IMG/VR virus record: IMGVR_UViG_3300009151_000077
Span: 1 to 61,461 of that record
Origin: a virus
Direction: 5' to 3' (one strand)
DNA length: 61,461 bases
The notes beneath the pieces are model-generated. The model was not told the DNA's origin. It did not search any database and saw only the letters and a list, made by a program, of their open reading frames with translations. The translations under genes were made by a program, and so were the position numbers. Shown one piece after another: positions 8,275 through 57,068 of this stretch; position 1 is the first letter of the stretch, and each line of letters starts with the position of its first letter.

Positions 8275-8292
8275 ATATATGTAAATAATATA

Positions 8293-8300
8293 TAACTTTG
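8293..8300 (+). promoter_or_regulatory. -7 box TAACTTTG before scaffold and capsid
   Basis: Exact TAnnTTTG match 20 bases upstream of the ATG at 8321, followed by the same 20-base A/T leader as at 2343-2362. A promoter here would allow high expression of scaffold and capsid independently of terminase and portal. Confidence 0.6.
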
Positions 8301-8320
8301 TAAAAATTAAATTAAATAAA

Positions 8321-9412
8321 ATGGAAGGAGAATTTAAAGTAAGAGCGGTAGAGTTCGAAGAAAAAGGTGTCGTTGAAATTGAGAATCAATTGCTAAAGGA
8401 GCATGAGGAAAAATTAAACGGTACCTCAGAAGCTGAGACTATTGATACTTCAAACTTACAACCAGCAGTAGAAGAAAATACTGTTGAAGAAATGGATGAT
8501 AATAAAGTTCTTTCATATCTTGGTAAAAGATGGAATCGAGAGATTACATCGCTAGACGAATTGGCAGATCAACGTAGGGATAACGAAGAGTTACCTGAAG
8601 ATGTATCTACCTTTTTAAAATATAAAAAAGAAACTGGAAGAAGCATCCAAGACTTTATTCAATTGAATAAGGATTATGATGCTGAAGAACCAGACTCTTT
8701 GTTGTTTGAATATTATAAGAATCAAAATGCGGATTTAGATTCTGAAGATATTAGATTTGATATAGAAAGCAATTTTTCATATGATTCAGATTTTGATGAT
8801 GAAAAAGATATCAAGAAAAAACAAATAGCAAAGAAAAAAGAGCTTGCTAAAGCTAAGAAGTATTTCAACGAATTGAAAGAACAGTACAAAGTTCCACTTG
8901 AGTCAAGGGATTCTTTTGTTCCACAAGAAGAAAGAGATAATTATGATGCTTACAAGAAATATAGAGAGTCTTCCTCTCTCAACGATGAAGAGCAACAGAA
9001 GAGGTCTAGATACTTCGCTGATAAAACAAATGAATTGTTCTCTGATAAGTTCGAAGGTTTCGGATTTAATATTGATGAGAACAAAAAGTTAGTATATAAA
9101 CCAGCTGAATCAAAAACCTTATTGCAGGAACAAGCAAATTTAAATAGCTTCGTATCGAAGTTTTTAAATGATGATGGTTACCTTGCTGATGCTGAGTCCT
9201 TTCACCGTGCTATATCTGTAGCCTCAAATCCAGAAAAATTTGCTAAGTTCTTTTATGAGCAAGGTAAGTCAGAAGCAATTGATGGTGTATCTAGGGAATC
9301 AAAGAATATTGACATGACTAGACAAACTACTCAAATTACTCCTAGTACTGGAATGCAGGTTAGAGTTTTAGATCAAGAGCGTGGAAGCAGATTAGTAATA
9401 AAAAAACGTTAA
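8321..9412 (+). CDS. probable capsid scaffolding protein
   Basis: 363 aa, highly charged, with acidic N-terminal half and Lys/Glu-rich coiled-coil-like segment at about 165-200; it ends in a basic tail (VIKKR), typical of scaffolds that bind the capsid shell through a basic C-terminus. It lies between portal and major capsid genes, the usual place. No protease motif is seen. The call rests on composition and position. Confidence 0.65.
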   Translation: MEGEFKVRAVEFEEKGVVEIENQLLKEHEEKLNGTSEAETIDTSNLQPAVEENTVEEMDDNKVLSYLGKRWNREITSLDELADQRRDNEELPEDVSTFLKYKKETGRSIQDFIQLNKDYDAEEPDSLLFEYYKNQNADLDSEDIRFDIESNFSYDSDFDDEKDIKKKQIAKKKELAKAKKYFNELKEQYKVPLESRDSFVPQEERDNYDAYKKYRESSSLNDEEQQKRSRYFADKTNELFSDKFEGFGFNIDENKKLVYKPAESKTLLQEQANLNSFVSKFLNDDGYLADAESFHRAISVASNPEKFAKFFYEQGKSEAIDGVSRESKNIDMTRQTTQITPSTGMQVRVLDQERGSRLVIKKR

Positions 9413-24987: not shown

Positions 24988-27900
24988 ATGTCAGATAATA
25001 ATATACCTTCACCAGCAGAATTTTATGGTAAAAAAAAACCATCAAGTACTAATAATATACCATCTCCAGAAGAATTTTACGGTACTTCATTAAAAAAAAA
25101 AGGGGTATCACAATCACAATTAGAGGAAGCGTCTACTTCATCGGATATATCAGACAACCAGGGAGATCAGCCTTCGGAGTCTTTAGGAGATGGTGATATA
25201 TATACATATAATGGTAGCACATATAAGAAGAGAGGCAACAAGTGGTATAAACTATCTGGTGGAAAATATGTACCTCTTACAGATGGTAATGTAGCTCAGA
25301 GAGTAGAGATATTAAACTCTAAGGCCAAAAAGTCAGTAGATAGATGGGCCAATGTTACTGAAGAGAATACAAACGCTAAGCCAAAATATAGAAAGGATGA
25401 CTATATAGATGAGGTTCAGAACACAGATTTCAATAGAACTGGTGATTCAAGAGCAATTCATGAAGAGGCATTACAAATGCAAAGAGAAGATATAGCTCAG
25501 AAAGAAGAAGAAAAATCTAGAAATAATAATCTTCTTCAAAATGAAGGTGTTTATACTGGATATCCTGGTAAAGATGGTAAGATTTATAAAATAATAGATA
25601 ATCATTGGTTTGAAGTAGATGCTCCTGATCCAAAATTTGAAACATTAACTCAGCCAGGAGGAGAAAATATATATAGAAAAATTGAACCAAAATCAGATAT
25701 TGATTTATATAATAAAGACCAGAAATGGAAACCTATAGATGATCAAAATAGATTAAAGTCACTTAATAAATATTTCAAAAAAGAAGCATCCTTAGACTCT
25801 ATGGATCAGGTATTTACTAATTATGACGATAGTGAAGAAAAAAAAGACAATTTATATAAAATAGATGATGGTGAGTGGAAGAGATTAATTCCAGGAGCTT
25901 CAGAGTATAGTACTGTTCTAGATGAAAATGCAATAAATGCATTAAATAGTAGGTACAATAAAAATATTGAATATAAAGATAAATCATCTGATAAAAAACA
26001 AGACTTAAAATTAAAATTTGTAGATATTAATTCTTCACTTACTGGTAAAACAGAAGAAGAAGCAGTAAGGATTTTAGAAGATAAATATGGAGATTATGGT
26101 TTCCAATTTTCACAAGAAGGGTTATTCAATATTGATAGAGTAAGAGTTAAAGCAGCAAATGGTAAGGAAATAACTGTAGAATTTGATGAAAAGAATTCAG
26201 AAGAGGCATTAAAGCTTAGAAATTTTATTGAACAAAATGCATCTAATAAAAGCAAATACAATTTATTAAATGTAATAGATAAAAAAGTTTCCGCCATAGG
26301 TGAGTCATATAATGATAAATATAATATATCTAGAGCAATACCTACTGATAATTCAAAGACGAGAGAAGAAAAGGAAAAGTATTACAATTCAGAAGAATAC
26401 AAAAAAATATTCAAGTCTTTATCTATAGATGAAATGGATGAAGAGGTTAGAAGAAGAGAAAGAGAATATCCTGTAACTAAAGGAAATATTTATAATATAT
26501 ATAAGCAAGAAAAAGAAAAGAAGTATAACTTAAATGATAAAAAAATAAAATCATTATACGAACAACTTAATATAGCTGAAAATTCTGGAAACAAACAACT
26601 TAAAAAAGAAGTTAAAAGTAAAATAGATACATACTTATCTGATGAAGTAATTAAAAATCAGGTTATGGATTATAATATTCATTTAAATGATTTAGTTGAT
26701 TCTGGAAAAAAATTAAAAACAGATATAAAACAATATGAATTATTGGTATCTGACTTTAATAAATCATATGCATCAATGTCCACAGAAGAGGTTGAAAAGC
26801 AGAAAAAAATATTAGAAAATAAAGCAGAGCAACTTGAAATAAGAAGAGATAATATATCTACTTCATTTAAAAACATAGAAGGATCACAGAAAAAAATAAA
26901 TATATTAGCTGGTGAGTACATCAGTTCAAAGGCAAAGATGGGTTCTTTTGGAGGTGCAATTGTAAATTCATTTTTAACTGGTGCTGTCAAAATAATTGAA
27001 CCAATGGTTTCTGCGTCATCATCTGGATATGATGTTGCGTTTGGAGTTAAAGAATCTATATCTCCAGAAGAAGAAAAATACTATAAAGATAAAGGATATA
27101 GTTATGAAGATATTCAAAATATAAAAAGAAACGAAAGATATAAAAGCGAAAAAGATAAGAGAAGAGAAGCTGTCATAGGAACAATAGGAAGCGAAACAAC
27201 AAAAGAATACATTAGTTCAAAAGATAATGGTTTTTTTGAGAAAGCATTATATGGTGTTGCTGAGTCAGCACCTGCAATGTTAGCCTCCTTAACTGGATCA
27301 TCAGCCGCAAGCTTTGGTGCTTTAGCATCACAATCATATAGCTCTATAGAAGATGAAATGCTTGGTGATGAAGATTTTAAAACTACTACTGCATTAGATA
27401 GATCTTCAATAGCAATACCATATGCATTGCTTATGGGTGTACTTGAAAATTATGGATTGAAAAACGCACTTAAAGGATCATCATTAACAAGTGGAATACT
27501 TAAAGGGGTTATATCTAGATCATTAAAGAAAATGCCATCTGGTGCTGAAAAAGAAGTTCTTCAACAAATAATAGATAAAGAAGTTAAAAATGTAATAGCA
27601 AAGGGAGCTATAAAAATAGTTAATGGTGCACTTGCTGAATTTGAAACTGGTGCTACTCAATCATTAGTATTAGATATTGGTTTAAAAGAAATATACAATC
27701 AATATAAAGATAAAACTAAAAACTTAACGGGAGGTGAGTCTTTTGATACACCAGATTCATTTGCTGAAGGAGCATCAAGGGTATGGGAAGATGGTTTAAT
27801 GGAAGCTATAGGTGGTGTTACTATATCTACATTTTCTAATGTTTCAACTGGAATTGTTACAGGAAATATTTCATTATACGATGAGAAAGATTTAAAATTC

Positions 27901-30900
27901 CTTGATGAAATATCTACCGATACTGAATTTAAAAAAATAATTGTAGCTAATTTAAAATCAGATATATTAAAAGGCAAAATAACTAAATCTGAAGCTGAAG
28001 CAAAACTTCAGAAAATGAACGAATTTTCAGGTATAATTCAAAACATGCCTGATGGACTTACCTCTGAACAACAAATAGAGTCTATTAATTTAATAGCTGA
28101 GAAAAAAAGATTAGAAAAAGAAATAGAAGGAAAAGATCCTTCTCTAGTAGATGCTCAAAAAAATAGAGTATCTGAGATAAATGAACAACTTAAAACAATA
28201 AGTAACAATGCCACTAAAAAAACCACAGAACAACAGCAAGGTAGCCAAGCAGAAGGCGGTGTCAGCCAATATCAAGGAGCTGGTGAAGGACAACAAAAAG
28301 ACGGGAATGCAGAAGGGGGACAACGGGAAGCCAAGGTCAATGAAGCAGATAGTGGCAATAGCACTATCCCAAGCAAAGTACAAGAAGAAGTAGCAACATA
28401 TAGAGCTGAAGAACAAGCTGAGCTTCTTAAAGCTATACCTAAAATAGAAAGCTATAAAGTTGATGGAAAGTTAGATAAAACTCTAATGCCTAAAACTGTA
28501 TTAGCTAAATATAATAAGATATACAATAAGTATGATAAATTAATAAGCCCTCTATTAGAAGCTACAACTGAAATAAAAATTGATAAGCAAAGTATTTCTA
28601 CTAATACTACAGAAGAAGTAGATAGAGTGAAATCACTTTCTATTGAGTCAGAGGATGGAGCTACATTTAATCTTGATGGTAAGAAGTATGACGGTCCTGG
28701 ATTAGTTGTTCCTGTAATTAGTATGAATACAACAATAGAAGATATAACTCCAGAGATGATATCTAAATTTGTTGAAGAACATGCTGATAAGATTGGAGAT
28801 TTTGGTACAGTAAAAGTTGGTATATATAAGTTTCCTAATAGTAATCAAGTATCTATAGACCTTAACATACTTGCACCTGAATCATCTAGAGATCAAGCAA
28901 TTGAGTTTGGAAAAATGTCTGGTCAAGAGTCTCTATTTGACATGAGTACATTTGAGAATGTTAAGACTGGTGCAACAGGAGAGAATCCAATGCAGTTTAC
29001 ACCACAGCAGTTTAAAGAAATTGCTAAGGCGTTGAAGGAAGGCAGGATGCCAAATGTATTTGGTACTCAAGAGGATACTAAAAATAATAGTAAGGAATCT
29101 ACAGCTAAGTCTGAAACTAATAAAGCAGACTATAAGCAAAACTTAGTTACTGCTGAAAATTCAAGAGAGGTAGCATCAAGACAAAAAACACCAATAAGAC
29201 AAAGGATAGCTAAAACAGTATCATTAGTAATGAGAGCTTTGCCTGGTGTTAAGATATATCTTCATAACAATGAAGCAGAGATGCATCAAGCCTTGGCAGA
29301 TTCTAGTGGTAAATCTTTAGAAGAAGTATCTAAACAGATAGGTAATTCAGCTGGGTCTCATATTTCAGGAGAGATTCATATAAATATGAATACCGCAAGG
29401 GAAAATACATTAATGCATGAGGCATTCCATGAGGCAATACTAAGGTCTGGAAAATCGGTTAAGACTATTATTAATTTTGCTAATGGACTTAAAAATATTG
29501 TATTAGATAAAGATGTTAAGGCTAAGTTAGATGATTTTGTTTCTATGTATAATTTAGATTCTAACAAAATTGAAGATCTTGAATACATTGATGAACAAAT
29601 AATATTAGAAAATAAAAGAAGAATAGCTGACGGAAAATTAGCTATGAATGCAAAAGAATCAGCTGATTATATTGACTATATAACTGAATCAACAAAATCT
29701 GAGGAAATGCTAGCAGAACTTGGTTCTATTATGGCTGAAGCGGAGACCGAACTAACAACTACAAAGCTGCATCAGTTCTTAAACCTAATTAATAGAATAG
29801 CTAAGAGCTTACGCTTACCTGTAATATTGAAGTCTACAGCAACTACACAAGAGGCCGTTGACTTTATTAATACTATGGCTACAAGTCTTAGGACTGGTGA
29901 GGAGATTGTAGGAGATAATGAAGGTGACGGTAAAATTAGAAGGCAAGCCACAGAAATCATGAAGGGAAATGAATCCCTAGAGAAGTTTGGTTTAAAAAAA
30001 GGAAAAAATATAACTAGAAAAATTGGCGAAGCCCTTGAAGCTAGACAACGTTCTAAATACGGTACAATTGCTCAAAAAGATAACTCTGCTGAAGCTCGTA
30101 AAAAAATATCTAACTGGATGGTTGATGAAGTAAAATACTTTGTCGAAATTATGGGTGATAAAAGTGGTAAAGGTTGGTATGGTGAGTTGTATCAAAAGTC
30201 ATTAGATAGAATGTCTAAGATTTTCCCTGAAATGAAAACAGATCAAAATGCAAGAGATTTGTTTACAATGTTGGTGGCAATTACATCTGATGGGCAAAAA
30301 GTAATGAGTAATTTTAAATTAGCAGCTTCTGCTTATGATTACTATAAGAAAAATGGAGTAATGCCTACCACTCTTCCAGGTCAAAGAGTAGCTTCTTTTG
30401 AAGCAAATCTAAAAAGAATAAATGAATTACTTATTGATTATAATGGTGATGTAGCCGCTATCAAAGAAAATTTGATGGAAGTTAAATCTATTCAAGAGAT
30501 AAATAAAGAGAGAAAGAAAGAAGGTTTAGAAGCGTTATCAACCAATTGGCCAGTTACGTTTAAGGCTCCATTCGCAGCATCTGTTTTTGGACCTAAACTA
30601 GGCATGTTCTTTTCTAATTTATCTGGAAACGAATCATATCCAACTTTAGATCGTTGGTGGTCTAGAACATTTAATAGATATAGAGGTACATTGATACCTG
30701 AATTAAAAAGTGGATTTACTAAAAAAGGTGAAGCTATTGGTCTTGATAGATTTAAGATATTGCTTGAAAGTCCATCTATGAGTAATGAAGAAGCACTATT
30801 AGCGTCTAAGTCTTACCGTGATTCATATGCCGCTAAAGGATACAAGAATGGAACTGAAGTAGAGAAAGCAGCAAATACAATATACAAAAATGCTTTTGAA

Positions 30901-33900
30901 AATCTTAATGATGCTCCATTCACTAAAAATGATCGTCAATTTATGTATGACACTATATCTGACGCTGTTAATAAATTAAATAAGCAGGAATATGATCTAA
31001 GTATTGCAGATGTTCAGGCTATTCTTTGGTATTTCGAAAAAAACTTATACAAAACATTAGGAGTTCAAGCAAAAATTGAAGGAATCAGTTATGAAGATGC
31101 CGCAAATTATACATATGATAAGTGGAAAGAGGCTGGTAATAAGTTTAACTACGAGATTAATCAATCTGAAGAAGGTCAATCTGTAGAGGATGAGGATATA
31201 GATGATACTGAACAACCATCCAAAATAAAACAGCAGAAGACCTTACAAGAAGAATTACCATTATATAAATTTGGAAATGAAATAACTACAACTATAGATC
31301 AAGATAAACCTATATCTGTTTTACCATTACCAGAAAGATATATGGATGGATATGAAGAAGCTACTGGTAAAAAATTAACTCAAAAAGATAAACAAAGTTT
31401 CCTATATAAATTAGGAAGAGATCATAAATATAAAAAAGGAGGCGTATATATTGATATATCAAATCTAGAAAATAAAGACACGGTAAATGGATATGTAGCT
31501 TCATCTGGAGAAATAAATATTGATCCAAAAACAGGAAGAGCTAGCCTTAATATATCTGAAAATATTTCAAGTCCTGAAGAAAGTTCTATTGGAAAGATTA
31601 TTAAAACAAATTTATTCAAGAAGAAAGCTGGATGGAATTGGACTTCAGATTCTGATAAATCAAGATATGATAAAGTAGAAACTTTAGTGTCTGTTGAAAT
31701 TGGAAGCAAACACGTTTATACCCTTGGTTTTAAATCAACTACACCAATACAGTTAAAAAATTATTCAGAATCTAAAAGCGAGCCTAGGTTAAGACCTACT
31801 ACAAAAGGACAATTATTTTTAGGTAATTATGTTGGAAATATTACAATAAGAGGTAAAAAACATCCTGTATATGATAATGTATACTCATACGATCAGAATG
31901 ATTATCAAACTTTAGATAGATTAAATTATAAATATTTAAAGCCTGAAGGACTACAAAGTTTTTATCCAGAACAAAGAAATGCAACATATAAAGAGCTAAA
32001 ATACAATCCATCAATAACACTAAAAGATAGATTAACAGATGCTGATCAATACATATTTGACAAACTAGGAATTAAGAATGCTGAATATGTATCTGGTGGA
32101 GTAGAAGCTTCTATTTATGATATAGGTGCTGGAAAAGTTATAAGAATATCTAAAAACCCTAGTAATTTTTCAAATAATCTTGTAAATAAAAAAATAGAAG
32201 GAGTTATTCCAGTTTATGCAACAGGTAAGGTTATTCTTCCTAAGAGAATGTTTGGTCTAGAAGATTACACGGGGCAAGTTATAAAAACAGAATCCAGAGA
32301 AGGTGGCTTAAAAGAAACCGAACCATTATATTATTCAATACTTAAAAAAGGAGATTCGTTAAATGTTAAAGAAGATTTAAATGCAATTTTAAATAAGCTT
32401 ATTAACTATATAACAAAAACACTTGATAAAAATATACGTTTTACTGATTCTATAGAAGATCAATTAACTATATTAAATGAACAAGAATTAGATGAATTTA
32501 AAAATAATCTTGACGATAAACAATTAAAAGATTTAAATAGAATAATAGAAATAAAAAACAATCTTAAAAAAATAGGAGTAAAAGAAAGAGACTCGCATAC
32601 TGGAAATTATGTTAGAAATTCAAATGGAGATCTTGAGGCAGTTGACCTTCAGTATGTTCGTTTTGATGAAGGATCTGAATTTAAAAAGACAGAAGAGAAA
32701 AATGTAATAAAACTACAAAAGACTCCACAAGAAACAAGAATGGATAATGAGTCTGAGTCTGTATTCAAGAAGTCATTAGATCGTGGAACAACTTGGGCTA
32801 AAGCTACTCAGAATGCACTAGACTACATACAGAAGTCAAAGTGGTATCAAGATGCAAACGACATAGATAGAGAGCAAAAGGTAAGGGACTTTAAGCAGTC
32901 TAAAAATCAAAAACTAAAGAAGGCACCATCTGTAGCTAAGATAATGGGAACTCCTAAGCCTAACATGGTCACTGTGAACGAGGTAGTTGCATTTAAGGAC
33001 CAACTAAGAAAAGAAGCCAAGGCAGCTAGAGAGGCCAAGGCTGACCTTAACTCAAAAAGAAAGTCATTAGGTGACGCCATCAAGGGAATGGTTAAGCTTG
33101 GAAAATTGAAGGCTACTCAAGCAGTCACAATCATCAAAAGAGTTAGTCAAGTAAACCTTGACAACCCAGTTATGGTTGAAAGACTTATTGACTATGCGTC
33201 AAGAGTATTTGAAAGAGCAGACTACCAAGAGAGATTAGACAGAGCATTCTCTTACAGAAGAGCGATCAGACGATTGTTGAAGTCAGATAACCAAGCACAG
33301 GTTATTGGTATGGCTAATCAGTTTACAAAGATAGATCCATCTATGGTTGAAAATATAGATGAGTATATCGCTATGGCTGATATAGTTAAGAATGCAGTGG
33401 CTCCTTCAAGAGCAAAAAAGTTCACTCTTGATAAGGAGAATTACTTTGATACTGATTCTGCAAAAGGTTTTGATATGGTATTAAGACAAGCTGCAAACAT
33501 AGAGACTGTATCAAACTTTGTTAAAGATGTACTTGAAAAACAAGAACAAAAATTAAAGGATGAGCTATTAGCTACTAATAATGATCTATTAGAATCTGGA
33601 GTTATATCTGCTGATATGACAGCAAAAGAGATACAAGAAATTGTAAACGCAATGAAAGATCCAGAATATAAAATGGATAGCCTAGAAAAAGAAAAGTACA
33701 TGAAGGCTTATCTATCAAAAAGATTTGAATCATTGGCATCAATTATTACAAATATTGTATACAATCCTAGAAACGAAAATCCACTTACTGGTGAGAAGAT
33801 GGCAATAGATGAAAAAGATAGAGCTATAATATTGAATTTACTAAAGGTAGATCTATCAGAGATGTCAAATAAAGATTCTATATTTATTGTTGAGGCAATG

Positions 33901-36576
33901 GATAACTTTATAACCAATGGAATAACTAGTAAATTAGAGGGTGCATTATCAACATACGAAGGAGAGCTTGGTTTAAAGAAAGAAATAAAATCTGGTAAAG
34001 TAGCTAGAGCATTGAAGCTTTACTTTAGCCCTAAAATAGGAAGATACTCTTCTGTAGAATTTACTCCACTACCACTTATGATAGAGAGGATGTTTAGTGG
34101 AGTTACAAGCGGAATAAGTGTAATGAAATCTATGGGACTTAATATTATTATTAATGGTGTTAATAAAGCAAATAATATTCATAACAAAATAATAAATGAA
34201 TACTACGATAAATTCATAAAGAATAGTAAAACATTTCATAATCCTGAAAATGTATACGAAAGAGGTATGCTTTCATTCTTAAAAAGAAATGTTACTGGAT
34301 CATTAGCAGAAATGAAGGCCGAAACAAATAGAAGGATTAATTTAATAACACAAAGTATTGATGTTTTAAGTAACTATGGAGATGAGTCTCAAAAAGCTAT
34401 GGCTGAAATTTATCAAAAATTATTTGATAAGTTAGGCGTAAGCACTGGAGACATAGACATAATTAACGCAAGAGCATCAAAAGAAAATAGAGAAGCTGTA
34501 GATTGGTGGATTAATGAGTGGTCTAAGCAATATAAAGATCTTGCTGATATAAGTTTATCTGTATATAATTATGACCTTGGAAGTGATTTAAACTATACTC
34601 CAGATCAATTCAAAACACTTAAGACAGAATCAATTGATAAAAACTTATTAGAGCGTAATTCATCGTTCTTAATAAGCATGGATAAAGTAACAGATAAGAA
34701 TAAGACAGGTGTTTTAATAGAATCAACTAGACCTACTAACATGGAGAAAGGTAGATATGTAAGTCTTGACTTTGATTCAAACAACTCAAACTCATTGAAG
34801 GGTGCATTAGTTGATATCAATACAGCCGCTGGAATAAGACAAGTTGATGGATTCTTAAATTCAGATCTATTAAATAAATTAATACCTACGGCTAAAGATA
34901 GAGATGCACTTAAAATAAGAGTAAACAGATACATAAGAAGAGCTAAAGGTAAAATAACCGTTCCTACAGATTTATATAAAGATGTTGATACTGTGCTTAA
35001 TTTTGCCGCGAGCCTTGGAGTTGGTAAGGCACTAGGTGGTGTACTACAGTCAGTAAAACAAACAATACCTATTGCACTAAGTACAGCTATAAACACTGGT
35101 AAGTTTAATGTAGCTGGAGTTGAATTCAATCAATGGCTTAATAAGACTGGAATGCCAATATCAAATAGAGGCATCGAGTCATTATCTACTATAGATTCTA
35201 TAGACAGAAGAATGGAAGCTAAAGGAACTAAGATTAAAGATTCATTAAAATGGATTGCAGAAAAACAACAGCTATATATAAAGTTTTTCTTGTCAAGACC
35301 AGATGTATTTATTGCAAGATCAGGTTTCGAGTCTTATTACTTACAGTATATGGGAGAGAAGTCTATAGACTGGGCCAATCATGAACCAAATCAAGACGCA
35401 TTAAACTATGCTCAATCTATGGTTGATAGACAGCAAAATATATCTGACCCAATGCTTGGCGGAGAGTTCTTAACATCTGAGGAATCAGTTAAAAGAATAG
35501 CTAAAAAAGTGTTATTCCCATTTGCTTCTTTTGCTTTAAATCAAAAGGCTAGATTAAATTCAGACTTAATAAATTTAGCATCTAAAACAACTAGCGAACA
35601 AGATAAAAAAATAGCAGCTAAATCAGCTATAGCTACGGTTGCTGAAATGGTTGCATACAGAGCTATGTCTGCTGCTATTGGTTATTCATTCTACAAGGCT
35701 GCTGAAATGGTAATCAATGGGTTTATAGGTGATGATGATGATGAAGATAAAGATCAAGATAAAAAATGGTGGATAAGTGCATCTAAGTTTCCAATTAAGT
35801 CAATGATAACTGACCTTGTATCTCCAGTACAGATGGCAGATCAATACGTTACTATGGGAACTGATTTCCTTTTATCTCTTGTTACTGGAGATACTAAGGC
35901 TGAGTTAGATGAGTCTGTTAAACAAGAAAATGAAATAAGAGCACTTAAGGATCAAGATCGAATGACTCCAAATCAAGAGGAAGACTTTAGACAAAAAGTA
36001 AAAGATAAGAGTACCTTTCAAGTTGGAAGTCAGTACGATCTTGTTAATGGATTTGGTATGGTTTCAATTGCATCAGACTTATACAAAAAGATATACTATG
36101 ACTATACTTTAGCTATGACTGGAGAGTTTGAGGATGAGTATAAAGGAAATATAACTACTAAGAAAATAAGACCAGTTGAGCAAGACTTAATGAAAAATAC
36201 TCTTATGTTCTCTGCATTATATGCCGCAGGTATTCTTCCAAAAGAATCAGATCAGATCGTTACAAAGGTTGTTAACATGGTTAAGAAGAACGCCATGTCA
36301 GAATCTGAGTATGAAAAATATAGTGAGTTCAAAACAGAATTTAAGCGTGAGCCAAGTCCATTTGAGATGGGAATGATTAAATCTGAAAAGAAGTACCAAT
36401 ATATATCTGACGATGTAAACTGGGTAAATACTAAGGGTGGATTAACATTAAGTCAAGGTAGAGAGTACGTTAAAATAATCAATACACTTGGTGAGGTTGA
36501 TAACAGTACTCTACTTGAGATAAAGGCTGGTAAGACAGCTGATCAAATAGTTAAGTCCATGAGGGCAAAGTTATAA
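24988..36576 (+). CDS. giant internal virion / polyvalent protein with metalloprotease-like and kinase-like motifs
   Basis: 3862 aa, about 19% of the window. N-terminus: two copies of NNIPSPxEFYG (residues 4-14 and 22-32), then repeated Tyr/Trp beta units. A Gln/Gly/Glu linker at about 1070-1140 is overprinted by another gene. HEAFHEA at about 1477-1483 is an HExxH zinc-protease motif. At about 2366-2390 a Gly-rich loop and VIRISK, and at about 2535-2555 DSHTGN followed by VDLQ, give a protein-kinase/aminoglycoside-kinase-like active site. The last 400 residues hold hydrophobic helices and an acidic DDDDEDKDQD loop. Place in the operon and size suit a virion protein injected with the DNA. No RNA polymerase DxDxD motif was found. 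Confidence 0.75.
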   Translation: MSDNNIPSPAEFYGKKKPSSTNNIPSPEEFYGTSLKKKGVSQSQLEEASTSSDISDNQGDQPSESLGDGDIYTYNGSTYKKRGNKWYKLSGGKYVPLTDGNVAQRVEILNSKAKKSVDRWANVTEENTNAKPKYRKDDYIDEVQNTDFNRTGDSRAIHEEALQMQREDIAQKEEEKSRNNNLLQNEGVYTGYPGKDGKIYKIIDNHWFEVDAPDPKFETLTQPGGENIYRKIEPKSDIDLYNKDQKWKPIDDQNRLKSLNKYFKKEASLDSMDQVFTNYDDSEEKKDNLYKIDDGEWKRLIPGASEYSTVLDENAINALNSRYNKNIEYKDKSSDKKQDLKLKFVDINSSLTGKTEEEAVRILEDKYGDYGFQFSQEGLFNIDRVRVKAANGKEITVEFDEKNSEEALKLRNFIEQNASNKSKYNLLNVIDKKVSAIGESYNDKYNISRAIPTDNSKTREEKEKYYNSEEYKKIFKSLSIDEMDEEVRRREREYPVTKGNIYNIYKQEKEKKYNLNDKKIKSLYEQLNIAENSGNKQLKKEVKSKIDTYLSDEVIKNQVMDYNIHLNDLVDSGKKLKTDIKQYELLVSDFNKSYASMSTEEVEKQKKILENKAEQLEIRRDNISTSFKNIEGSQKKINILAGEYISSKAKMGSFGGAIVNSFLTGAVKIIEPMVSASSSGYDVAFGVKESISPEEEKYYKDKGYSYEDIQNIKRNERYKSEKDKRREAVIGTIGSETTKEYISSKDNGFFEKALYGVAESAPAMLASLTGSSAASFGALASQSYSSIEDEMLGDEDFKTTTALDRSSIAIPYALLMGVLENYGLKNALKGSSLTSGILKGVISRSLKKMPSGAEKEVLQQIIDKEVKNVIAKGAIKIVNGALAEFETGATQSLVLDIGLKEIYNQYKDKTKNLTGGESFDTPDSFAEGASRVWEDGLMEAIGGVTISTFSNVSTGIVTGNISLYDEKDLKFLDEISTDTEFKKIIVANLKSDILKGKITKSEAEAKLQKMNEFSGIIQNMPDGLTSEQQIESINLIAEKKRLEKEIEGKDPSLVDAQKNRVSEINEQLKTISNNATKKTTEQQQGSQAEGGVSQYQGAGEGQQKDGNAEGGQREAKVNEADSGNSTIPSKVQEEVATYRAEEQAELLKAIPKIESYKVDGKLDKTLMPKTVLAKYNKIYNKYDKLISPLLEATTEIKIDKQSISTNTTEEVDRVKSLSIESEDGATFNLDGKKYDGPGLVVPVISMNTTIEDITPEMISKFVEEHADKIGDFGTVKVGIYKFPNSNQVSIDLNILAPESSRDQAIEFGKMSGQESLFDMSTFENVKTGATGENPMQFTPQQFKEIAKALKEGRMPNVFGTQEDTKNNSKESTAKSETNKADYKQNLVTAENSREVASRQKTPIRQRIAKTVSLVMRALPGVKIYLHNNEAEMHQALADSSGKSLEEVSKQIGNSAGSHISGEIHINMNTARENTLMHEAFHEAILRSGKSVKTIINFANGLKNIVLDKDVKAKLDDFVSMYNLDSNKIEDLEYIDEQIILENKRRIADGKLAMNAKESADYIDYITESTKSEEMLAELGSIMAEAETELTTTKLHQFLNLINRIAKSLRLPVILKSTATTQEAVDFINTMATSLRTGEEIVGDNEGDGKIRRQATEIMKGNESLEKFGLKKGKNITRKIGEALEARQRSKYGTIAQKDNSAEARKKISNWMVDEVKYFVEIMGDKSGKGWYGELYQKSLDRMSKIFPEMKTDQNARDLFTMLVAITSDGQKVMSNFKLAASAYDYYKKNGVMPTTLPGQRVASFEANLKRINELLIDYNGDVAAIKENLMEVKSIQEINKERKKEGLEALSTNWPVTFKAPFAASVFGPKLGMFFSNLSGNESYPTLDRWWSRTFNRYRGTLIPELKSGFTKKGEAIGLDRFKILLESPSMSNEEALLASKSYRDSYAAKGYKNGTEVEKAANTIYKNAFENLNDAPFTKNDRQFMYDTISDAVNKLNKQEYDLSIADVQAILWYFEKNLYKTLGVQAKIEGISYEDAANYTYDKWKEAGNKFNYEINQSEEGQSVEDEDIDDTEQPSKIKQQKTLQEELPLYKFGNEITTTIDQDKPISVLPLPERYMDGYEEATGKKLTQKDKQSFLYKLGRDHKYKKGGVYIDISNLENKDTVNGYVASSGEINIDPKTGRASLNISENISSPEESSIGKIIKTNLFKKKAGWNWTSDSDKSRYDKVETLVSVEIGSKHVYTLGFKSTTPIQLKNYSESKSEPRLRPTTKGQLFLGNYVGNITIRGKKHPVYDNVYSYDQNDYQTLDRLNYKYLKPEGLQSFYPEQRNATYKELKYNPSITLKDRLTDADQYIFDKLGIKNAEYVSGGVEASIYDIGAGKVIRISKNPSNFSNNLVNKKIEGVIPVYATGKVILPKRMFGLEDYTGQVIKTESREGGLKETEPLYYSILKKGDSLNVKEDLNAILNKLINYITKTLDKNIRFTDSIEDQLTILNEQELDEFKNNLDDKQLKDLNRIIEIKNNLKKIGVKERDSHTGNYVRNSNGDLEAVDLQYVRFDEGSEFKKTEEKNVIKLQKTPQETRMDNESESVFKKSLDRGTTWAKATQNALDYIQKSKWYQDANDIDREQKVRDFKQSKNQKLKKAPSVAKIMGTPKPNMVTVNEVVAFKDQLRKEAKAAREAKADLNSKRKSLGDAIKGMVKLGKLKATQAVTIIKRVSQVNLDNPVMVERLIDYASRVFERADYQERLDRAFSYRRAIRRLLKSDNQAQVIGMANQFTKIDPSMVENIDEYIAMADIVKNAVAPSRAKKFTLDKENYFDTDSAKGFDMVLRQAANIETVSNFVKDVLEKQEQKLKDELLATNNDLLESGVISADMTAKEIQEIVNAMKDPEYKMDSLEKEKYMKAYLSKRFESLASIITNIVYNPRNENPLTGEKMAIDEKDRAIILNLLKVDLSEMSNKDSIFIVEAMDNFITNGITSKLEGALSTYEGELGLKKEIKSGKVARALKLYFSPKIGRYSSVEFTPLPLMIERMFSGVTSGISVMKSMGLNIIINGVNKANNIHNKIINEYYDKFIKNSKTFHNPENVYERGMLSFLKRNVTGSLAEMKAETNRRINLITQSIDVLSNYGDESQKAMAEIYQKLFDKLGVSTGDIDIINARASKENREAVDWWINEWSKQYKDLADISLSVYNYDLGSDLNYTPDQFKTLKTESIDKNLLERNSSFLISMDKVTDKNKTGVLIESTRPTNMEKGRYVSLDFDSNNSNSLKGALVDINTAAGIRQVDGFLNSDLLNKLIPTAKDRDALKIRVNRYIRRAKGKITVPTDLYKDVDTVLNFAASLGVGKALGGVLQSVKQTIPIALSTAINTGKFNVAGVEFNQWLNKTGMPISNRGIESLSTIDSIDRRMEAKGTKIKDSLKWIAEKQQLYIKFFLSRPDVFIARSGFESYYLQYMGEKSIDWANHEPNQDALNYAQSMVDRQQNISDPMLGGEFLTSEESVKRIAKKVLFPFASFALNQKARLNSDLINLASKTTSEQDKKIAAKSAIATVAEMVAYRAMSAAIGYSFYKAAEMVINGFIGDDDDEDKDQDKKWWISASKFPIKSMITDLVSPVQMADQYVTMGTDFLLSLVTGDTKAELDESVKQENEIRALKDQDRMTPNQEEDFRQKVKDKSTFQVGSQYDLVNGFGMVSIASDLYKKIYYDYTLAMTGEFEDEYKGNITTKKIRPVEQDLMKNTLMFSALYAAGILPKESDQIVTKVVNMVKKNAMSESEYEKYSEFKTEFKREPSPFEMGMIKSEKKYQYISDDVNWVNTKGGLTLSQGREYVKIINTLGEVDNSTLLEIKAGKTADQIVKSMRAKL
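28208..28393 (+). CDS. overprinted small protein, DUF6496-like
   Basis: 61 aa in the +1 frame inside the giant gene. It reads as a real protein: NIKELVKDNKKTG, then SMKQIVAIALSQAKYKKK, matching the K-Q-x-V-A-I-A-L-S-x-A signature of the small DUF6496 family found in phages and bacteria. In the main frame the same bases encode a low-complexity Gln/Gly/Glu/Ala linker. Codons in the small frame favour AAG, GTG and GCC and the stretch is visibly richer in GC than its surroundings. Likely a small gene inserted into the giant gene that happened to leave the long frame open. Start ATG 28208; expression is unproven. Confidence 0.6.
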   Translation: MPLKKPQNNSKVAKQKAVSANIKELVKDNKKTGMQKGDNGKPRSMKQIVAIALSQAKYKKK

Positions 36577-50066: not shown

Positions 50067-50297
50067 TTAAAGGTTAATATTTTCATCATTTAGTTCAAGA
50101 GATTTCTCGTAGTCAGAAAGAAATTTCTCGTAATCAGAAAGTAATTTTATTAGATTTGTCGTTTGCAATTCATTGAATGTATTACTTAATGTCTTAATAA
50201 ATCTATCAGCGTTATTTTTTCTTACTGCTCTTTCAAATGCTTCAAGCACCTCTCCGTTGTCAAATTGAAATAGATTTTTTCTTTCTTGGTTGTTCAT
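50067..50297 (-). CDS. unknown helical protein, 76 aa
   Basis: Helical, ending in a short internal duplication (DYEKFLSDYEKSLE). The last codons (INL, stop) are formed by the shared leader of the next gene. Confidence 0.5.
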   Translation of the reverse strand: MNNQERKNLFQFDNGEVLEAFERAVRKNNADRFIKTLSNTFNELQTTNLIKLLSDYEKFLSDYEKSLELNDENINL

Positions 50298-50485: not shown

Positions 50486-50710
50486 TTAAAAGGTTAGTGT
50501 ATCAATCTCATCGTAAAGTTCTACATACTCTAGTGGGAATCTTTCCTTTAGTGATTGTATTAATTTTGCATGGCTGTATACCTCATAGCCATCTCGCTCT
50601 GCGTTAACGATTGGTTGGATGACCTCTGCGATTTGGCTATCGTCTAGTGTTGTTACTAGGTAGAAGTCCTCTTCTGACCATGCTGTTGTGCTGATTCTAA
50701 TTACTCTCAT
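50486..50710 (-). CDS. unknown protein, 74 aa
   Basis: Alpha/beta pattern with an acidic end, no motif. Preceded by a shared leader at 50711-50733. Confidence 0.5.
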   Translation of the reverse strand: MRVIRISTTAWSEEDFYLVTTLDDSQIAEVIQPIVNAERDGYEVYSHAKLIQSLKERFPLEYVELYDEIDTLTF

Positions 50711-50722
50711 GTTTTCTAGGTT

Positions 50723-50929
50723 TTATTGGTTAATATATCTCTCGTTAAATTGTTCTTGAGTCACCTCAGTATTGTCGATGCCCAAGTTGTATGCTATCTC
50801 TGCAACGTATTCTTTGTTATCGGGATTCAATATGCTATCGGGCCAATATCCTGTGCATGTTTCGGTTTCTTTTACTATAGCACATCCGCTTAATATTATT
50901 GTTGCTATTAAAATTAATATCGCTTTCAT
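50723..50929 (-). CDS. small early lipoprotein
   Basis: 68 aa. MKAILILIATIILSGCAIVK is a type II signal peptide with lipobox LSGC (Cys at residue 16). The mature part is about 52 residues, acidic. Small phage lipoproteins often block superinfection by inactivating the receptor (as T5 Llp); that is the leading hypothesis. Its last residues INQ plus stop come from the next gene's shared leader. Confidence 0.7.
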   Translation of the reverse strand: MKAILILIATIILSGCAIVKETETCTGYWPDSILNPDNKEYVAEIAYNLGIDNTEVTQEQFNERYINQ

Positions 50930-51434: not shown

Positions 51435-51959
51435 TTACATTTTAAGCATTGTGGTCTCTGTCCCATCGTCTCCATGTTCTGGAAATTCTCTATTAAATTT
51501 ATCTTGATGTGTTTCCCAAAATCTAATGTCAGACAACCAAGATATTGAGAACTTTTCTAGTCCTGCTTCAATGCACATGTCGTAAACTTTCTCCGTATCT
51601 CTAGCTGTAGGGAAGTTCTTATCGAAGGAATACATGTCATTTAATACTTCGTTACGTCCTGTGTCATCTCCTACTACATAACCTCCACCACTTGTAGTTA
51701 CTAGTTCAACGGCATGTCGATTAGTTCTTGCCCATGCATATCTTTTATTAGACATGTCTTCTTTTGCCTTAGCTGTTGAGCCTTGTATAAAGCAAGCCTT
51801 AAAGGTTTTTAGTAACTCTACCTCTGTCATGGTAAAGTCTACGAGGATTGTCTCGTGCTCTAGCACACACTCTAACGTTACTCTGTTACCTACTATCTCG
51901 TGTACCTTGTGGTCACGACCTTGCATTTTTCTGTGGTTTACATTTACGATTGCTCTCAT
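51435..51959 (-). CDS. unknown protein, 174 aa
   Basis: Mixed alpha/beta protein, beta-rich in the first 70 residues (VGNRVTLECVLEHETILVDF) and helical later. No motif recognised. It is the longest gene of the 50-53 kb cassette region and carries the shared leader. Confidence 0.55.
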   Translation of the reverse strand: MRAIVNVNHRKMQGRDHKVHEIVGNRVTLECVLEHETILVDFTMTEVELLKTFKACFIQGSTAKAKEDMSNKRYAWARTNRHAVELVTTSGGGYVVGDDTGRNEVLNDMYSFDKNFPTARDTEKVYDMCIEAGLEKFSISWLSDIRFWETHQDKFNREFPEHGDDGTETTMLKM

Positions 51960-51983
51960 TGTTTCTAAGTTTTAATTGGTTAA

Positions 51984-52157
51984 TTAATCTTGACAAGCAT
52001 ACAACACTTGAATCAAGCTATCGTATAAGAACATCCCGTTGTATGTCTCAAAGCCAAATCGATTGATAGTGATGTCGCTGTCATTTAATTGTAGTGTGGT
52101 GTAAGTTCCCGTGCGTTGACCATAGCTGTCTTCAACGCATACATAGTAAGTTTTCAT
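51984..52157 (-). CDS. unknown protein downstream of hammerhead copy 1, 57 aa
   Basis: From ATG 52157 to TAA 51984. Beta-rich (YYVCVEDSYG, TLQLNDSDITIN). The start codon lies 22 bases after the predicted ribozyme cleavage site, so its mRNA would begin with the UUAACC leader. Confidence 0.55.
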   Translation of the reverse strand: MKTYYVCVEDSYGQRTGTYTTLQLNDSDITINRFGFETYNGMFLYDSLIQVLYACQD

Positions 52158-52173
52158 GGTTTCTAATTTATTT

Positions 52174-52225
52174 GGTTAAGACGGCACGAATGCCGTTTCG
52201 ATTATTTAAATCTCATCAGTTAACC
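52174..52225 (-). ncRNA. hammerhead ribozyme, type I, copy 1
   Basis: Stem I GGUUAA/UUAACC closes the structure. Core CUGAUGA, stem II GAUU/AAUC with a five-base loop, GAAA, stem III of six pairs with a UUCG tetraloop, and a GUC cleavage triplet. All invariant core bases are present. Cleavage is predicted between 52180 and 52179 (- strand reading), 22 bases before the start codon of the next gene. Confidence 0.92.
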
Positions 52226-52228
52226 TTG

Positions 52229-52402
52229 TTACCATCCTCCATATGGCTCTACCTCTAAGTCGTTAAAATTCATTATTGAATCAGATAGTGACCACTCGTA
52301 CCATGCGACAAGCACATCGTTACCTAATACCTCAACTACTTCTCCTACTCCGTGACCATAGTTGAATTCTCCTACTATGTCTCCTACTTTTAATACGTTC
52401 AT
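52229..52402 (-). CDS. SH3-like small protein, 57 aa
   Basis: From ATG 52402 to TAA 52229. LKVGDIVGEF, then VGEVVEVLGNDVLVAWYEW, is the pattern of a small SH3/KOW-like beta barrel. It stops four bases before hammerhead copy 1 and has the shared leader in front. Confidence 0.55.
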   Translation of the reverse strand: MNVLKVGDIVGEFNYGHGVGEVVEVLGNDVLVAWYEWSLSDSIMNFNDLEVEPYGGW

Positions 52403-52414
52403 AATTTCTAAGTT

Positions 52415-52597
52415 TTATTGGTTAATAAAATCTTGTGGGCTCATCTTGATCAAGTCCTCTTCTCTGAAGTTCTTAAGGTCTTGTAACTTGCTTCTATCTA
52501 CATCTATTATCCCGTGTACAGGGTGTTTGATGTCGTTGATGCCTACGAAGTTGATGTTACGAATCAACTGCTCTCTGATTTCAAGTTCTCTTGTCAT
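52415..52597 (-). CDS. unknown protein, 60 aa
   Basis: Charged, with VGINDIKHPVHGIIDVDRSK in the middle. The last three residues INQ and the stop are provided by the shared leader of the next gene. No family recognised. Confidence 0.5.
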   Translation of the reverse strand: MTRELEIREQLIRNINFVGINDIKHPVHGIIDVDRSKLQDLKNFREEDLIKMSPQDFINQ

Positions 52598-52624
52598 AAT
52601 TTCTAAGTTTTATATGGTTAATGA

Positions 52625-52732
52625 TTATCTCCAACCTCTTACACGTAATCGGTTAGTTCTTACTAATGTGCCCTCAAAGAAGAAGCCCCAAATCTCGAAT
52701 GCTCCCTCGATTCTAATGATTTTGCTAGTCAT
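52625..52732 (-). CDS. small basic protein downstream of hammerhead copy 2, 35 aa
   Basis: From ATG 52732 to TAA 52625, aromatic N-terminal half and Arg-rich C-terminus. The start lies 24 bases after the predicted cleavage site of hammerhead copy 2. Confidence 0.5.
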   Translation of the reverse strand: MTSKIIRIEGAFEIWGFFFEGTLVRTNRLRVRGWR

Positions 52733-52750
52733 AATTTCTAGGTTTTTATT

Positions 52751-52807
52751 GGTTAAGACAGCACCTTGCGAGTGCTGTTTCGTCTCATAAAGACTCATCA
52801 GTTAACC
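52751..52807 (-). ncRNA. hammerhead ribozyme, type I, copy 2
   Basis: Stem I GGUUAA/UUAACC, core CUGAUGA, stem II GUCU/AGAC with a five-base loop, GAAA, stem III ACAGCAC/GUGCUGU (seven pairs), GUC triplet. Predicted cleavage between 52757 and 52756 (- strand reading). Complete core. Confidence 0.92.
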
Positions 52808-52811
52808 TGTG

Positions 52812-52916
52812 TTAAAATGAACATGAAGTTCCGTGCACGATAGCATTGTAAACGACTACTGCTACTACTAACATTAAGCCTAAAGCAAATGTTAAGGGGG
52901 CTGTTAAGTTTTTCAT
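52812..52916 (-). CDS. single-pass membrane peptide, 34 aa
   Basis: From ATG 52916 to TAA 52812. One hydrophobic segment (residues 8-26) and a short Cys-containing end. It lies between hammerheads 3 and 2, with its start 23 bases after the predicted cleavage site of copy 3. Confidence 0.55.
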   Translation of the reverse strand: MKNLTAPLTFALGLMLVVAVVVYNAIVHGTSCSF

Positions 52917-52933
52917 TGTGTTAGGTATTTGTT

Positions 52934-52983
52934 GGTTAAGACGCCTCACGGCGTTTCGGTCATTAAGACCTCATCAGTTAACC
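52934..52983 (-). ncRNA. hammerhead ribozyme, type I, copy 3
   Basis: Stem I GGUUAA/UUAACC, core CUGAUGA, stem II GGUC/GACC with a five-base loop, GAAA, stem III ACGCC/GGCGU with a GUGA (GNRA) tetraloop, GUC triplet. Predicted cleavage between 52940 and 52939 (- strand reading). The three copies share core and stem I but differ in stems II and III with compensated pairs. Confidence 0.93.
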
Positions 52984-52988
52984 TTGTT

Positions 52989-53207
52989 GCAAGCCACGTG
53001 AAACTGCTTGCCCTCTATTAATCCCTACTAGTGTTGTTATTCTAGTGGTTCCGACACACAACCACCCGAGTAGTGTATTGTGTGCCCTAGGTATGTCCTA
53101 GTCTTGTGCTATCTTATTGACCTCCTCACCGATTGCAGTCTCAAATAGTATCGTATGTCAAATTGTCATGGTGACCTCTCGTCAGCTGAGCCGTTGCCCT
53201 CTGCAAT
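52989..53207 (-). other. structured non-coding leader upstream of hammerhead copy 3
   Basis: No ORF of note. Consecutive perfect hairpins: GCAAGC/GCTTGC (52989-53011), ACTAG/CTAGT (53027-53046), CACACAA/TTGTGTG (53055-53084), CTAGG/CCTAG (53087-53101), and a long-range pair ATTGCAG/CTGCAAT (53132-53207). The - strand reading would form the 5' end of the early transcript. Could be a structured 5' leader or a small RNA gene. Confidence 0.45.
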
Positions 53208-53717
53208 ACTAATGCTAAAACTTTGAATAAGTAACACTTTTTTTGAAAGTTTTTTTTGCTTGACATGTTAAAACAGCGGATTATTTGTTGCATTGCTTTG
53301 ATAATCAACACGTTACACGACGAAAAAAAAGATGAAAAAAGTTTGTTTTTTTTTGTTACGTGATGATATAACCTCCCCTATGAAGACATGAATTGCTATC
53401 AGATTGGCTTTCCTGTTGGCTCGATTGGTCGCTCGATTGGTCGGTCGGTCGGTCACCTTGTCAGTCATTCTATTTAACATAATGCAAATTATATGACAGC
53501 CTCATCGAGCAGTCGAGCGGACGGCAGGCTTGTTACCTGTGTAATATACAGCACAGGAGGGCGGACGGGGTGACCATGGAAAAGCTAGAAAATCCGACCT
53601 CAATTTCTGAAAACGGAGACCCCCCCCTTCGATTGGAAAGCGTTTCCCCCTAGCGAGCGATCACGTCAGATGGGGGTATTACCCAAAACCTATGAATATC
53701 TAACCCCAAATTTTTAA
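53208..53717. other. non-coding divergence region between the - and + units
   Basis: About 500 bases without a gene. It holds A/T homopolymer runs (53240-53350), a tandem repeat CTCGATTGGTCG twice at 53420-53443 continuing into GGTC units, a hairpin CCTGTG/CACAGG (53536-53557), copies of GGTGACC and its complement at 53170, 53451 and 53569, and a run of eight C near 53625. Promoters for the early genes should lie here, but no exact TAnnTTTG box was found on the - strand. Confidence 0.4.
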
Positions 53718-55508: not shown

Positions 55509-57068
55509 ATGATAGTAAAACAAGTGCATTTTGGCGATGAGGGCCAAAAAAAGTTGAAAAACGGAATCAAAATTATCGCTGGGGCGGTAAAGAGCACCTT
55601 AGGTGCAAGAGGTCGGACTGTATTAATAGAGTCTGAGCACCATGTAGGTGGTTTAACAGTCACGAAGGACGGTGTAACGGTCGCAAAGTCGATCAACCTG
55701 TATGACCCAACTGAGAACCTGGCTGTAATGATGATGCGTCAGGCGGCAGACAAGACGGCAACTGTAGCTGGTGACGGTACAACAACATCAATCGTGTTAG
55801 CTGAGGCTATGATCGACTCTGCTGACAAGCACATGGGATTCAATGAGAACGTTATCGAGGTGATCCGTGAGATCAATGACATTACGGGAACAATTGTATC
55901 TAGACTTGAGAAGATGAGCAAGAAGGTGAGTGGCAAGAAGTTATTTGACGTGGCATCTATCAGTGCAAACAACGACAAGCAGATCGGTAAGATGATCTCT
56001 GATGCATTTAACGAGGTTGACATGGTAACTGTTGAGAACAGCATGAACTCGGAGACACATGTAGAGATTATTAGCGGAATGAAGATCGATCGTGGTTACA
56101 CATCGAAGTACTTCATCAACGAGCAGAAGAAGCAGGAGTGTATACTTGACAACCCATACATTTTAATTACAGATCACGAGATCAACAATTTATCCAACTT
56201 AGAGGCTATCTTAGCACCAATTGTAAGCCAAGGCAGGTCGTTATTGATCATCGGTACACTTGGACCAAACGCAATGAACACATTAAATGTGAACGTGGCA
56301 CAGGGCAAGATCAAGGCTTGTAACATTATCCCCCCATCGTTTGGATACAGGAAGAAGGACCTACTAGAAGATCTAGCTGTAGCACTTGGAGGTACGTACC
56401 TATCTGAGGACACTGGAGACGACTTAACGCTTGTTACTATGGCTGACTTAGGTAAGGCATCGAAAGTTGTTGTGAAGAAGAATATGACAGTATTTATGAA
56501 TGTCGCTGAGGTTAAGGAATCTATCGACATGAGGGTTGCTGACTTGAAGCATCAGATATGGGAGACAACTGACGCAAACGACAGAGAGTTCTTAAAGCAG
56601 AGAATTGCAAATATCTCTGGCGGTGTTGGTGTTATCTACGTTGGTGCGTTGAGCGACATTGAGCAGAAGGAGAAGAAGGACAGGATCGATGACGCTGTGT
56701 GTGCTGTTACTGCTGCGATGGACGAGGGTATATTACCTGGTGGTGGTATTGCATTACTTAACTGTATGGATTTGGTTATGGGTGACAGTGTTGCACAGAA
56801 CATTATGTTCGATATGTTGAGCTCACCATTTGATCAGATACTTTTAAACGCAGGCAAGGACCCATCGGCTATTAAGTTAGAGTTAGAGGGATTAGGCTTT
56901 GGTTATGACGTTAAGAACGAGGTATACGGAGACATGATGAAGATGGGTATCATTGACCCAACGAAGGTTACCAAGAACGCACTACTTAATGCTGTATCTG
57001 TGGCAACAACAATTATGAGTACAAACGCAATTATAACAAACATAAGAGACTATGAAGGTTCTAAATAA
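55509..57068 (+). CDS. groEL: phage-encoded GroEL-like chaperonin (HSP60)
   Basis: 519 aa, against about 540-550 for bacterial GroEL. Conserved: TVTKDGVTVAK at about 50-60 (catalytic Asp equivalent to D52), VAGDGTTT at about 86-93 (D87 equivalent), NISGGVGVIYVGA, KKDRIDDAVCAVTAAMDEGI (D398 equivalent), LPGGGIALLN and DPTKVTKNALLNAVSVA. The ATPase site is therefore intact. The Gly-Gly-Met tail of bacterial GroEL is missing. It would fold phage proteins, probably capsid or tail components, with the GroES encoded next to it. Confidence 0.95.
   Translation: MIVKQVHFGDEGQKKLKNGIKIIAGAVKSTLGARGRTVLIESEHHVGGLTVTKDGVTVAKSINLYDPTENLAVMMMRQAADKTATVAGDGTTTSIVLAEAMIDSADKHMGFNENVIEVIREINDITGTIVSRLEKMSKKVSGKKLFDVASISANNDKQIGKMISDAFNEVDMVTVENSMNSETHVEIISGMKIDRGYTSKYFINEQKKQECILDNPYILITDHEINNLSNLEAILAPIVSQGRSLLIIGTLGPNAMNTLNVNVAQGKIKACNIIPPSFGYRKKDLLEDLAVALGGTYLSEDTGDDLTLVTMADLGKASKVVVKKNMTVFMNVAEVKESIDMRVADLKHQIWETTDANDREFLKQRIANISGGVGVIYVGALSDIEQKEKKDRIDDAVCAVTAAMDEGILPGGGIALLNCMDLVMGDSVAQNIMFDMLSSPFDQILLNAGKDPSAIKLELEGLGFGYDVKNEVYGDMMKMGIIDPTKVTKNALLNAVSVATTIMSTNAIITNIRDYEGSK

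Follow-up and report, generated by a model that had tools for sequence, protein, structure and literature searches.

Hammerhead ribozymes of types I-III have been described in prophages, where multiple copies, including a triple arrangement at ardA in Agrobacterium, flank single genes of one phage transcript (PMC3088659). In this 2011 study, Perreault et al. found that clustered prophage hammerheads cut polycistronic RNA in vitro and in E. coli, and processing of the operon into separate mRNAs by such clustered phage hammerheads was already proposed (PMC3088659). The purpose of prokaryotic hammerheads is nevertheless regarded as an open question (PMC6155905).

This work describes a fresh example of this already known kind, from an under-annotated family and with a clear architecture. 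The window (the whole stretch of DNA that was analysed) is IMG/VR virus record IMGVR_UViG_3300009151_000077, with a length of 61,461 b. As in the prophages, multiple copies flank single genes of one phage transcript and separation of mRNAs is the proposed role. Unlike in that study, the window virus record was not seen as a prophage, stem I is uniformly 6 bp with a 3' strand that is also the gene leader, the predicted cut lies 22-24 nt before each AUG, and contact is made via single flanking bases and no pseudoknot. We consider it probable (about 0.77) that the three elements function as type I hammerheads and cut a polycistronic early mRNA 22-24 nt before three small genes. This reading builds directly on sequence, structure, family-wide covariation and the positions of start and stop codons, from which we infer cleavage in the cell, an effect on translation or stability, and early timing.

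The virus appears to be a flavobacteria-type phage of flavobacteria-like hosts. Its TerL and portal proteins are 68% and 61% identical to those of their nearest relative, an unclassified podovirus from Manatee Spring, followed by Flavobacterium phages elemo (44% and 48%) and Cellulophaga phages. The hammerheads open a series of very small genes on the minus strand, and a non-coding region upstream of this series divides it from the rightward genes. Judged by its position and gene content rather than by timing data, the operon would be early. The three elements, all on the minus strand, are the following:

52934..52983, minus strand: hammerhead A, type I (E 5e-15; minimum free energy (MFE) -17.6, z -3.0), with stem I at 52983-52978/52939-52934, core CUGAUGA at 52977-52971, stem-loop II at 52970-52958, GAA at 52957-52955, stem III at 52954-52941 (GUGA loop), C17 at 52940 and the predicted cut between 52940 and 52939
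52751..52807, minus strand: hammerhead B, type I (E 6.5e-14; MFE -18.1, z -2.6), with the core at 52801-52795, stem-loop II at 52794-52782, stem III at 52778-52758, C17 at 52757 and the predicted cut between 52757 and 52756
52174..52225, minus strand: hammerhead C, type I (E 9e-17; MFE -12.8, z -2.3), with the core at 52219-52213, stem-loop II at 52212-52200, stem III at 52196-52181 (UUCG loop), C17 at 52180 and the predicted cut between 52180 and 52179

The earlier note had reported these coordinates, and direct reading and a descriptor scan agree on them exactly. Its structural description was likewise confirmed: the invariant core CUGAUGA / GAAA / GUC is complete in 3/3 elements, all share the 6-bp stem I GGUUAA/UUAACC, stems II and III differ yet are paired, and tetraloops close stem III of hammerhead C (UUCG) and of hammerhead A (GUGA). 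Each copy is laid out as 5'-GGUUAA-CUGAUGA-stem/loop II-GAA-stem III-C-UUAACC-3', with stems II and III closed by loops and stem I open in 3/3 copies, which is the type I topology. Scripted pairing gives 4, 5 and 4 bp for stem II and 5, 8 and 7 bp for stem III (copies at 52934, 52751 and 52174, in that order), and folding gives the 52174 copy a stem III of 6 bp with the UUCG loop. The minimum-energy fold is the hammerhead for each copy, with z between -2.3 and -3.0 against shuffles. A strict descriptor, which required the core and at least 4, 5 and 6 bp in stems II, III and I, respectively, matched three times on the minus strand of the window and not on the plus strand, and had no match in 3.7 Mb of Markov sequence (60 replicas of the window, in which 346 CUGAUGA cores were present). 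A covariance model built from relatives (R1) recovered hammerheads C, B and A with E = 9e-17, 6.5e-14 and 5e-15, respectively. By every computational test applied, the finding is confirmed as real and correctly named at the sequence level. As a separate observation, hammerhead B has within its CUGAUGA core an AUG that shares the reading frame of the following 35-aa gene (window 52625-52798, minus strand), and uncut RNA could yield a 57-aa, N-terminally extended product.

The covariance check against Rfam that the earlier note had proposed gave scores below the family thresholds, an outcome that proved uninformative. At gathering cut-offs, no model matched the window copies. When the region was searched alone, four sub-threshold matches to three hammerhead models appeared: Hammerhead_1 at 22.7 bits (cut-off 34), Hammerhead_3 at 26.5 (48.5) and RAGATH-1-hammerhead at 26.1 and 23.5 (56.3). 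Hammerhead_1 (RF00163, type I) shares the core and topology, and hammerhead C aligns with it end to end, but with one copy reaching 22.7 bits as the best score this model does not describe the window group. The RAGATH-1-hammerhead (RF03152) resembles the window copies in having the core with a short open stem I, but scores far below its cut-off and has an upstream hairpin that is not conserved in the window family. Zero copies were recognised at gathering in 14 family loci with dozens of covarying relatives either, so the gathering threshold was dropped as a judge of reality. Since current Rfam thresholds miss the whole group tested, the group is absent from phage annotation.

As the earlier note had stated, a tiny gene follows each hammerhead (34, 35 and 57 aa). 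These genes, and the leaders of neighbouring genes that have no hammerhead, are as follows:

52812..52916, minus strand: 34-aa ORF after hammerhead A, probably membrane-spanning (MKNLTAPLTFALGLMLVVAVVVYNAIVHG...), AUG 23 nt past the cut
52625..52732, minus strand: 35-aa ORF after hammerhead B (MTSKIIRIEGAFEIWGFF...), AUG 24 nt past the cut
51984..52157, minus strand: 57-aa ORF after hammerhead C (MKTYYVCVEDSYGQRTG...), AUG 22 nt past the cut
52595..52621, minus strand: hammerhead-free leader UUAACC...UUAGAAAUUAUG before ORF 52597-52415, with 24 nt from UUAACC to AUG, as in the ribozyme leaders
52400..52425, minus strand: hammerhead-free leader UUAACCAAUAAAACUUAGAAAUUAUG before ORF 52402-52229, including the stop UAA of the upstream gene
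51957..51983, minus strand: hammerhead-free leader UUAACCAAUUAAAACUUAGAAACAAUG before ORF 51959-51435
50708..50733, minus strand: hammerhead-free leader UUAACCAAUAAAACCUAGAAAACAUG before ORF 50710-50486; similar leaders lie at 50077 and 49106

The leader, consisting of UUAACC, an A-rich stretch and an AUG at 22-24 nt, is thus the same in neighbouring genes without a ribozyme. UUAACC is therefore primarily a leader sequence, with which the 3' strand of stem I coincides. A scan of positions 53000-53700 for the Bacteroidetes promoter motif gave no match, and a sigma-70 scan performed no better than shuffles. The non-coding region at 53400-53480 (minus strand) holds short repeats (GACCGACCGACC, CAATCGAGC) and A/T tracts and is a possible control region. 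Elsewhere, the window encodes a 3862-aa ORF (24988-36576, plus strand) and a GroEL-like chaperonin (55509-57068, plus strand; phrog_5725, E 6e-130).

In the proposed mechanism, a cut at C17↓U (↓, predicted cut) would leave the upstream mRNA with a 3' end capped by stems II and III of the ribozyme (2',3'-cyclic phosphate), and would give the downstream gene a short, unstructured 5'-OH leader that runs from UUAACCA... up to the AUG. The ribozyme would borrow the first six bases of this leader as the 3' strand of its stem I, and cutting would expose them. One long transcript may in this way become shorter, insulated and separate mRNAs with equal leaders, and ligand regulation would not be the role; at the first gene, cutting would shorten the 5' UTR. 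Several genes of the window operon have no ribozyme, and the genes downstream of hammerheads span many unrelated families with no specific regulated function visible. A tie to specific gene families was rejected, as the 283 downstream ORFs in the family fall into 220 clusters.

The wider family was delimited with sequence patterns and with a covariance model built on 49 copies. The pattern with the window's stem I occurs in at least 119 viral stretches in IMG/VR versus one MAG contig only in all GTDB species genomes, and host prophages were consequently rejected as the main home of this exact GGUUAA-type pattern. A second IMG/VR pattern left the outer four stem I pairs free. Among the matches listed, 62 of the 70 distinct ones found by this second pattern only have a stem I of at least 6 bp, against about seven with shuffled partners, and stem I differs from GGTT in 60 of these 62. 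The variation with preserved pairing that the earlier note had seen in three copies thus extends far past the window. Exactly six stem I pairs are found in 279/299 copies of the wider set, among the matches listed; in the wider set, an A precedes stem I in 92-100% and follows it in 84-99%, and loop II is 5 nt long and of the UNANU type. Double changes occur at 13/16 pairs, a count that is supportive only, as the rows were preselected for pairing. Stem I varies across the family and also inside one record.

Three copies within 0.8 kb had been called unusual, a view that does not hold: relatives reach nine clustered copies in about 4.3 kb, and a triple prophage arrangement was published in 2011. 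Single records carry up to 9, 8 and 7 clustered copies, though they were chosen for having a copy and do not indicate prevalence. The densest cluster found, with nine hammerheads, lies in a 51,152-b record (L130, copies at 4444-8722 of G022). Among 48 records with a related terminase, many of them fragments, the family is present in three and none was found in 45, which shows that the model is specific and the family patchy. GenBank record MW202828, with the closest terminase to that of the window phage, has no family copy, and this together with the patchy presence indicates that the function is dispensable.

Position is highly regular. An ORF follows 283/289 copies, with the AUG at a median of 23 nt past the cut (quartiles 21-27). 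The upstream stop mostly falls at -20..+6 of stem I, abutting or overlapping stem I or the core (54 at the UAA in stem I, 47 at the UGA of CUGA and 76 abutting). Homologs of the 57-aa ORF (58-60% identity) in L031 and L052 are preceded by hammerheads with unrelated stems II/III, a homolog of the 35-aa ORF in L107 (55% identity) also has a hammerhead in front, and a small hydrophobic ORF lies 3' of hammerheads in L071 and L056 as well. Two cultured phages carry the family design. Flavobacterium phage elemoC_14-1A, which has Flavobacterium sp. BAL314 as its laboratory host, contains stem I GGCAAA/UUUGUC in a copy near position 16,970 of its record, and in Pelagibacter phage HTVC019P stem I is GCAAAA/UUUUGC. 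With a fixed distance to the start codon, a leader shared with and without ribozyme, a junction that is kept while stems change and a cultured example, the family offers a sharp, testable answer on the purpose of such ribozymes. In L213 (2493-2561; HTVC019P 2944-3012), a family-type hammerhead with GUA at its predicted cut site lies between genes, ahead of those for MarR and integrase, and its stem I is immediately followed by an AUG. A core variant, CCGAUGA (U4 to C), recurs in L008 (2685, minus strand) and L123 (4275), in copies that are otherwise complete and lie before start codons.

The stop codon positions would also suit a translation-coupled switch, in which ribosomes terminating upstream cover stem I and the core, and cleavage occurs only when upstream translation is low. 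Hammerhead B begins 4 nt past the stop of the 34-aa ORF and hammerhead C 3 nt past the stop of ORF 52402-52229, so that window stops end 3-4 nt before stem I in both, and stops in the family lie very often in or beside stem I or the core. Tight phage gene packing and a constant core that closes two of three frames partly dictate where stops can lie, however, and hammerhead A has no convincing upstream gene; we consider such a switch unlikely.

Less probable still is a reversible cut-and-join process, in which a GUC>p fragment is ligated to the 5'-OH UUAACC of another copy to give shuffled leaders or circles. Ligation is the chemical reverse of cleavage, and stem I is identical in the three window copies while stems II and III differ, but the shared leader accounts for UUAACC, stem I differs among family members and even within one record, and the 2011 search for splicing and circular products was negative (PMC3088659). 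That the elements are relics, hammerhead-shaped sequences spread by recombination with no present function, would fit the patchy presence and the decayed or core-changed copies (CCGAUGA in L008 and L123, a core-less stem III in L118). Intact cores, compensation in every stem as well as in the tertiary contact, and conservation at homologous junctions speak against it and make it very improbable. Processing of the operon thus remains the preferred reading.

In minimal hammerheads stabilised by tertiary contacts, the +7 base forms a trans-Hoogsteen pair with loop II (PMC9217987). The present family is alike in that loop II would meet the base 7 nt past the cut, and unlike in that it is a natural phage family with mostly A(+7)-U(loop) and natural U-A swaps. 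The +7 base, just after stem I, is A and loop II position 5 is U in most copies. Where +7 is U, loop II position 5 is A in 10/10 copies versus 2/126 others (p = 1.6e-13, dereplicated), although shared ancestry is not removed by the shuffles and Fisher tests used. In a few cases the 5' flank and position 1 of the loop are swapped in this way too, and hammerhead B has A/G at +7 / loop II position 5. At the level of the family, A/U swapping thus supports a tertiary pair of nucleotide +7 with loop II. Geometry may explain part of the +7 U cases, in which stem I could grow to 7 bp by an A-U pair, but lengthening cannot account for copies in which an AUAUA loop goes with U on both sides. The pair probably aids fast folding.

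A search for ribozyme-free UUAACC leaders in other phages led to a second clade (L015, L017, L030, L032, L041, L058, L060, L078, L116, L120, L215 and L216), whose terminase type differs from that of the window phage. Here, one complete hammerhead is followed by two to five core-less downstream sites (solo sites) with the identical 12-mer GGUGUC↓UUAACC. Directly 5' of each solo site lies variable sequence, mostly a hairpin (GCCC-GAAA-GGGC, CCCC-AAAU-GGGG, CUACGGCAC...GUGCCGUAG), and 3' of it an AUG. Full hammerheads with two to five solo sites (hairpin-GGTGTC↓TTAACC-leader-ATG) are located as follows:

L078 5042-6853, minus strand: full hammerhead and solo sites
L120 11967-12660, minus strand: full hammerhead and solo sites
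L015 300-804: full hammerhead and solo sites
L032 3560-4558: full hammerhead and solo sites
L041 2629-4212: full hammerhead and solo sites
L215 7805-8835: full hammerhead and solo sites
L216 5042-6010: full hammerhead and solo sites

The 12-mer occurs 3-6 times per clade record and its reversed control not at all, and the covariance model finds a single full copy in each of these records. All 12 positions are invariant in 31 distinct solo sites, an invariance that the search imposed in part but not for GGU at -6 to -4, while the terminases are 16-23% different from that of L120 at the DNA level. Among 19 terminase relatives with enough upstream DNA, records with the ribozyme have 3-5 solo sites (7/7) and records without it have none (0/12). 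This joint gain or loss of enzyme and substrates suggests a natural trans-acting hammerhead.

Structure predictions give a possible route. In L078, the 5' fragment of the ribozyme is GGUUAACUGAUGAGGCUUUUAUAGCCGAAACACC... and the solo RNA is AAGCCCGAAAGGGCGGUGUCUUAACCAAC. Stem III of the enzyme (-10.9 kcal/mol) is predicted to be about as stable as an alternative hairpin ACCGCC/GGCGGU (-11.2), and pairing of the cleaved enzyme fragment with a solo site would, by prediction, give an exact two-strand hammerhead (-35.8 kcal/mol, against -30.3 for the two RNAs apart). After self-cleavage, the hairpin would free an ACACC arm; the arms ACACC and GGUUAA would then recognise the two to five core-less hairpin-GGUGUC↓UUAACC sites, which lie some 20 nt ahead of later genes, and a single RNA enzyme at the head of the gene run would process the whole operon. 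We give even odds that the L120 clade encodes a natural trans-acting hammerhead, with one ribozyme cutting several core-less sites. The solo sites could possibly descend from decayed hammerheads, of which L118 has an example, but exact retention of the 12-mer is not expected from decay. If true, this would be, to our knowledge, the first natural hammerhead with multiple substrates; a literature search outside subscription papers, for natural trans-acting hammerheads or a phage-wide survey, returned only the 2011 paper (PMC3088659) and does not prove novelty.

Trans cleavage within the window was rejected, as its UUAACC solo leaders have neither GUC nor any complement to an enzyme arm. Solo sites matching the phage's own arm in other phages (G-U allowed) numbered 87 versus 38-76 for swapped arms and are mostly due to chance, with a lone standout at L025:985, where GGAUGUC↓UUAACC can pair with the phage's own ACGUCC arm, one of the pairs being G-U. 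Enzyme-only halves were looked for in the solo clade and none was found, and phage C75C1, a cultured relative of this clade, has neither ribozyme nor solo sites. L322 (87% TerL) has neither as well and keeps UUAACC leaders at homologous genes (4221, 4428 and 4653, minus strand). L328 and L336 are further close relatives without ribozyme and solo sites, and L322 forms a natural knock-out pair. At L215 7742 and L216 4979, a GCCCGAAAGGGC hairpin is inserted in the ribozyme's stem II; this hairpin is also the one found before the solo sites.
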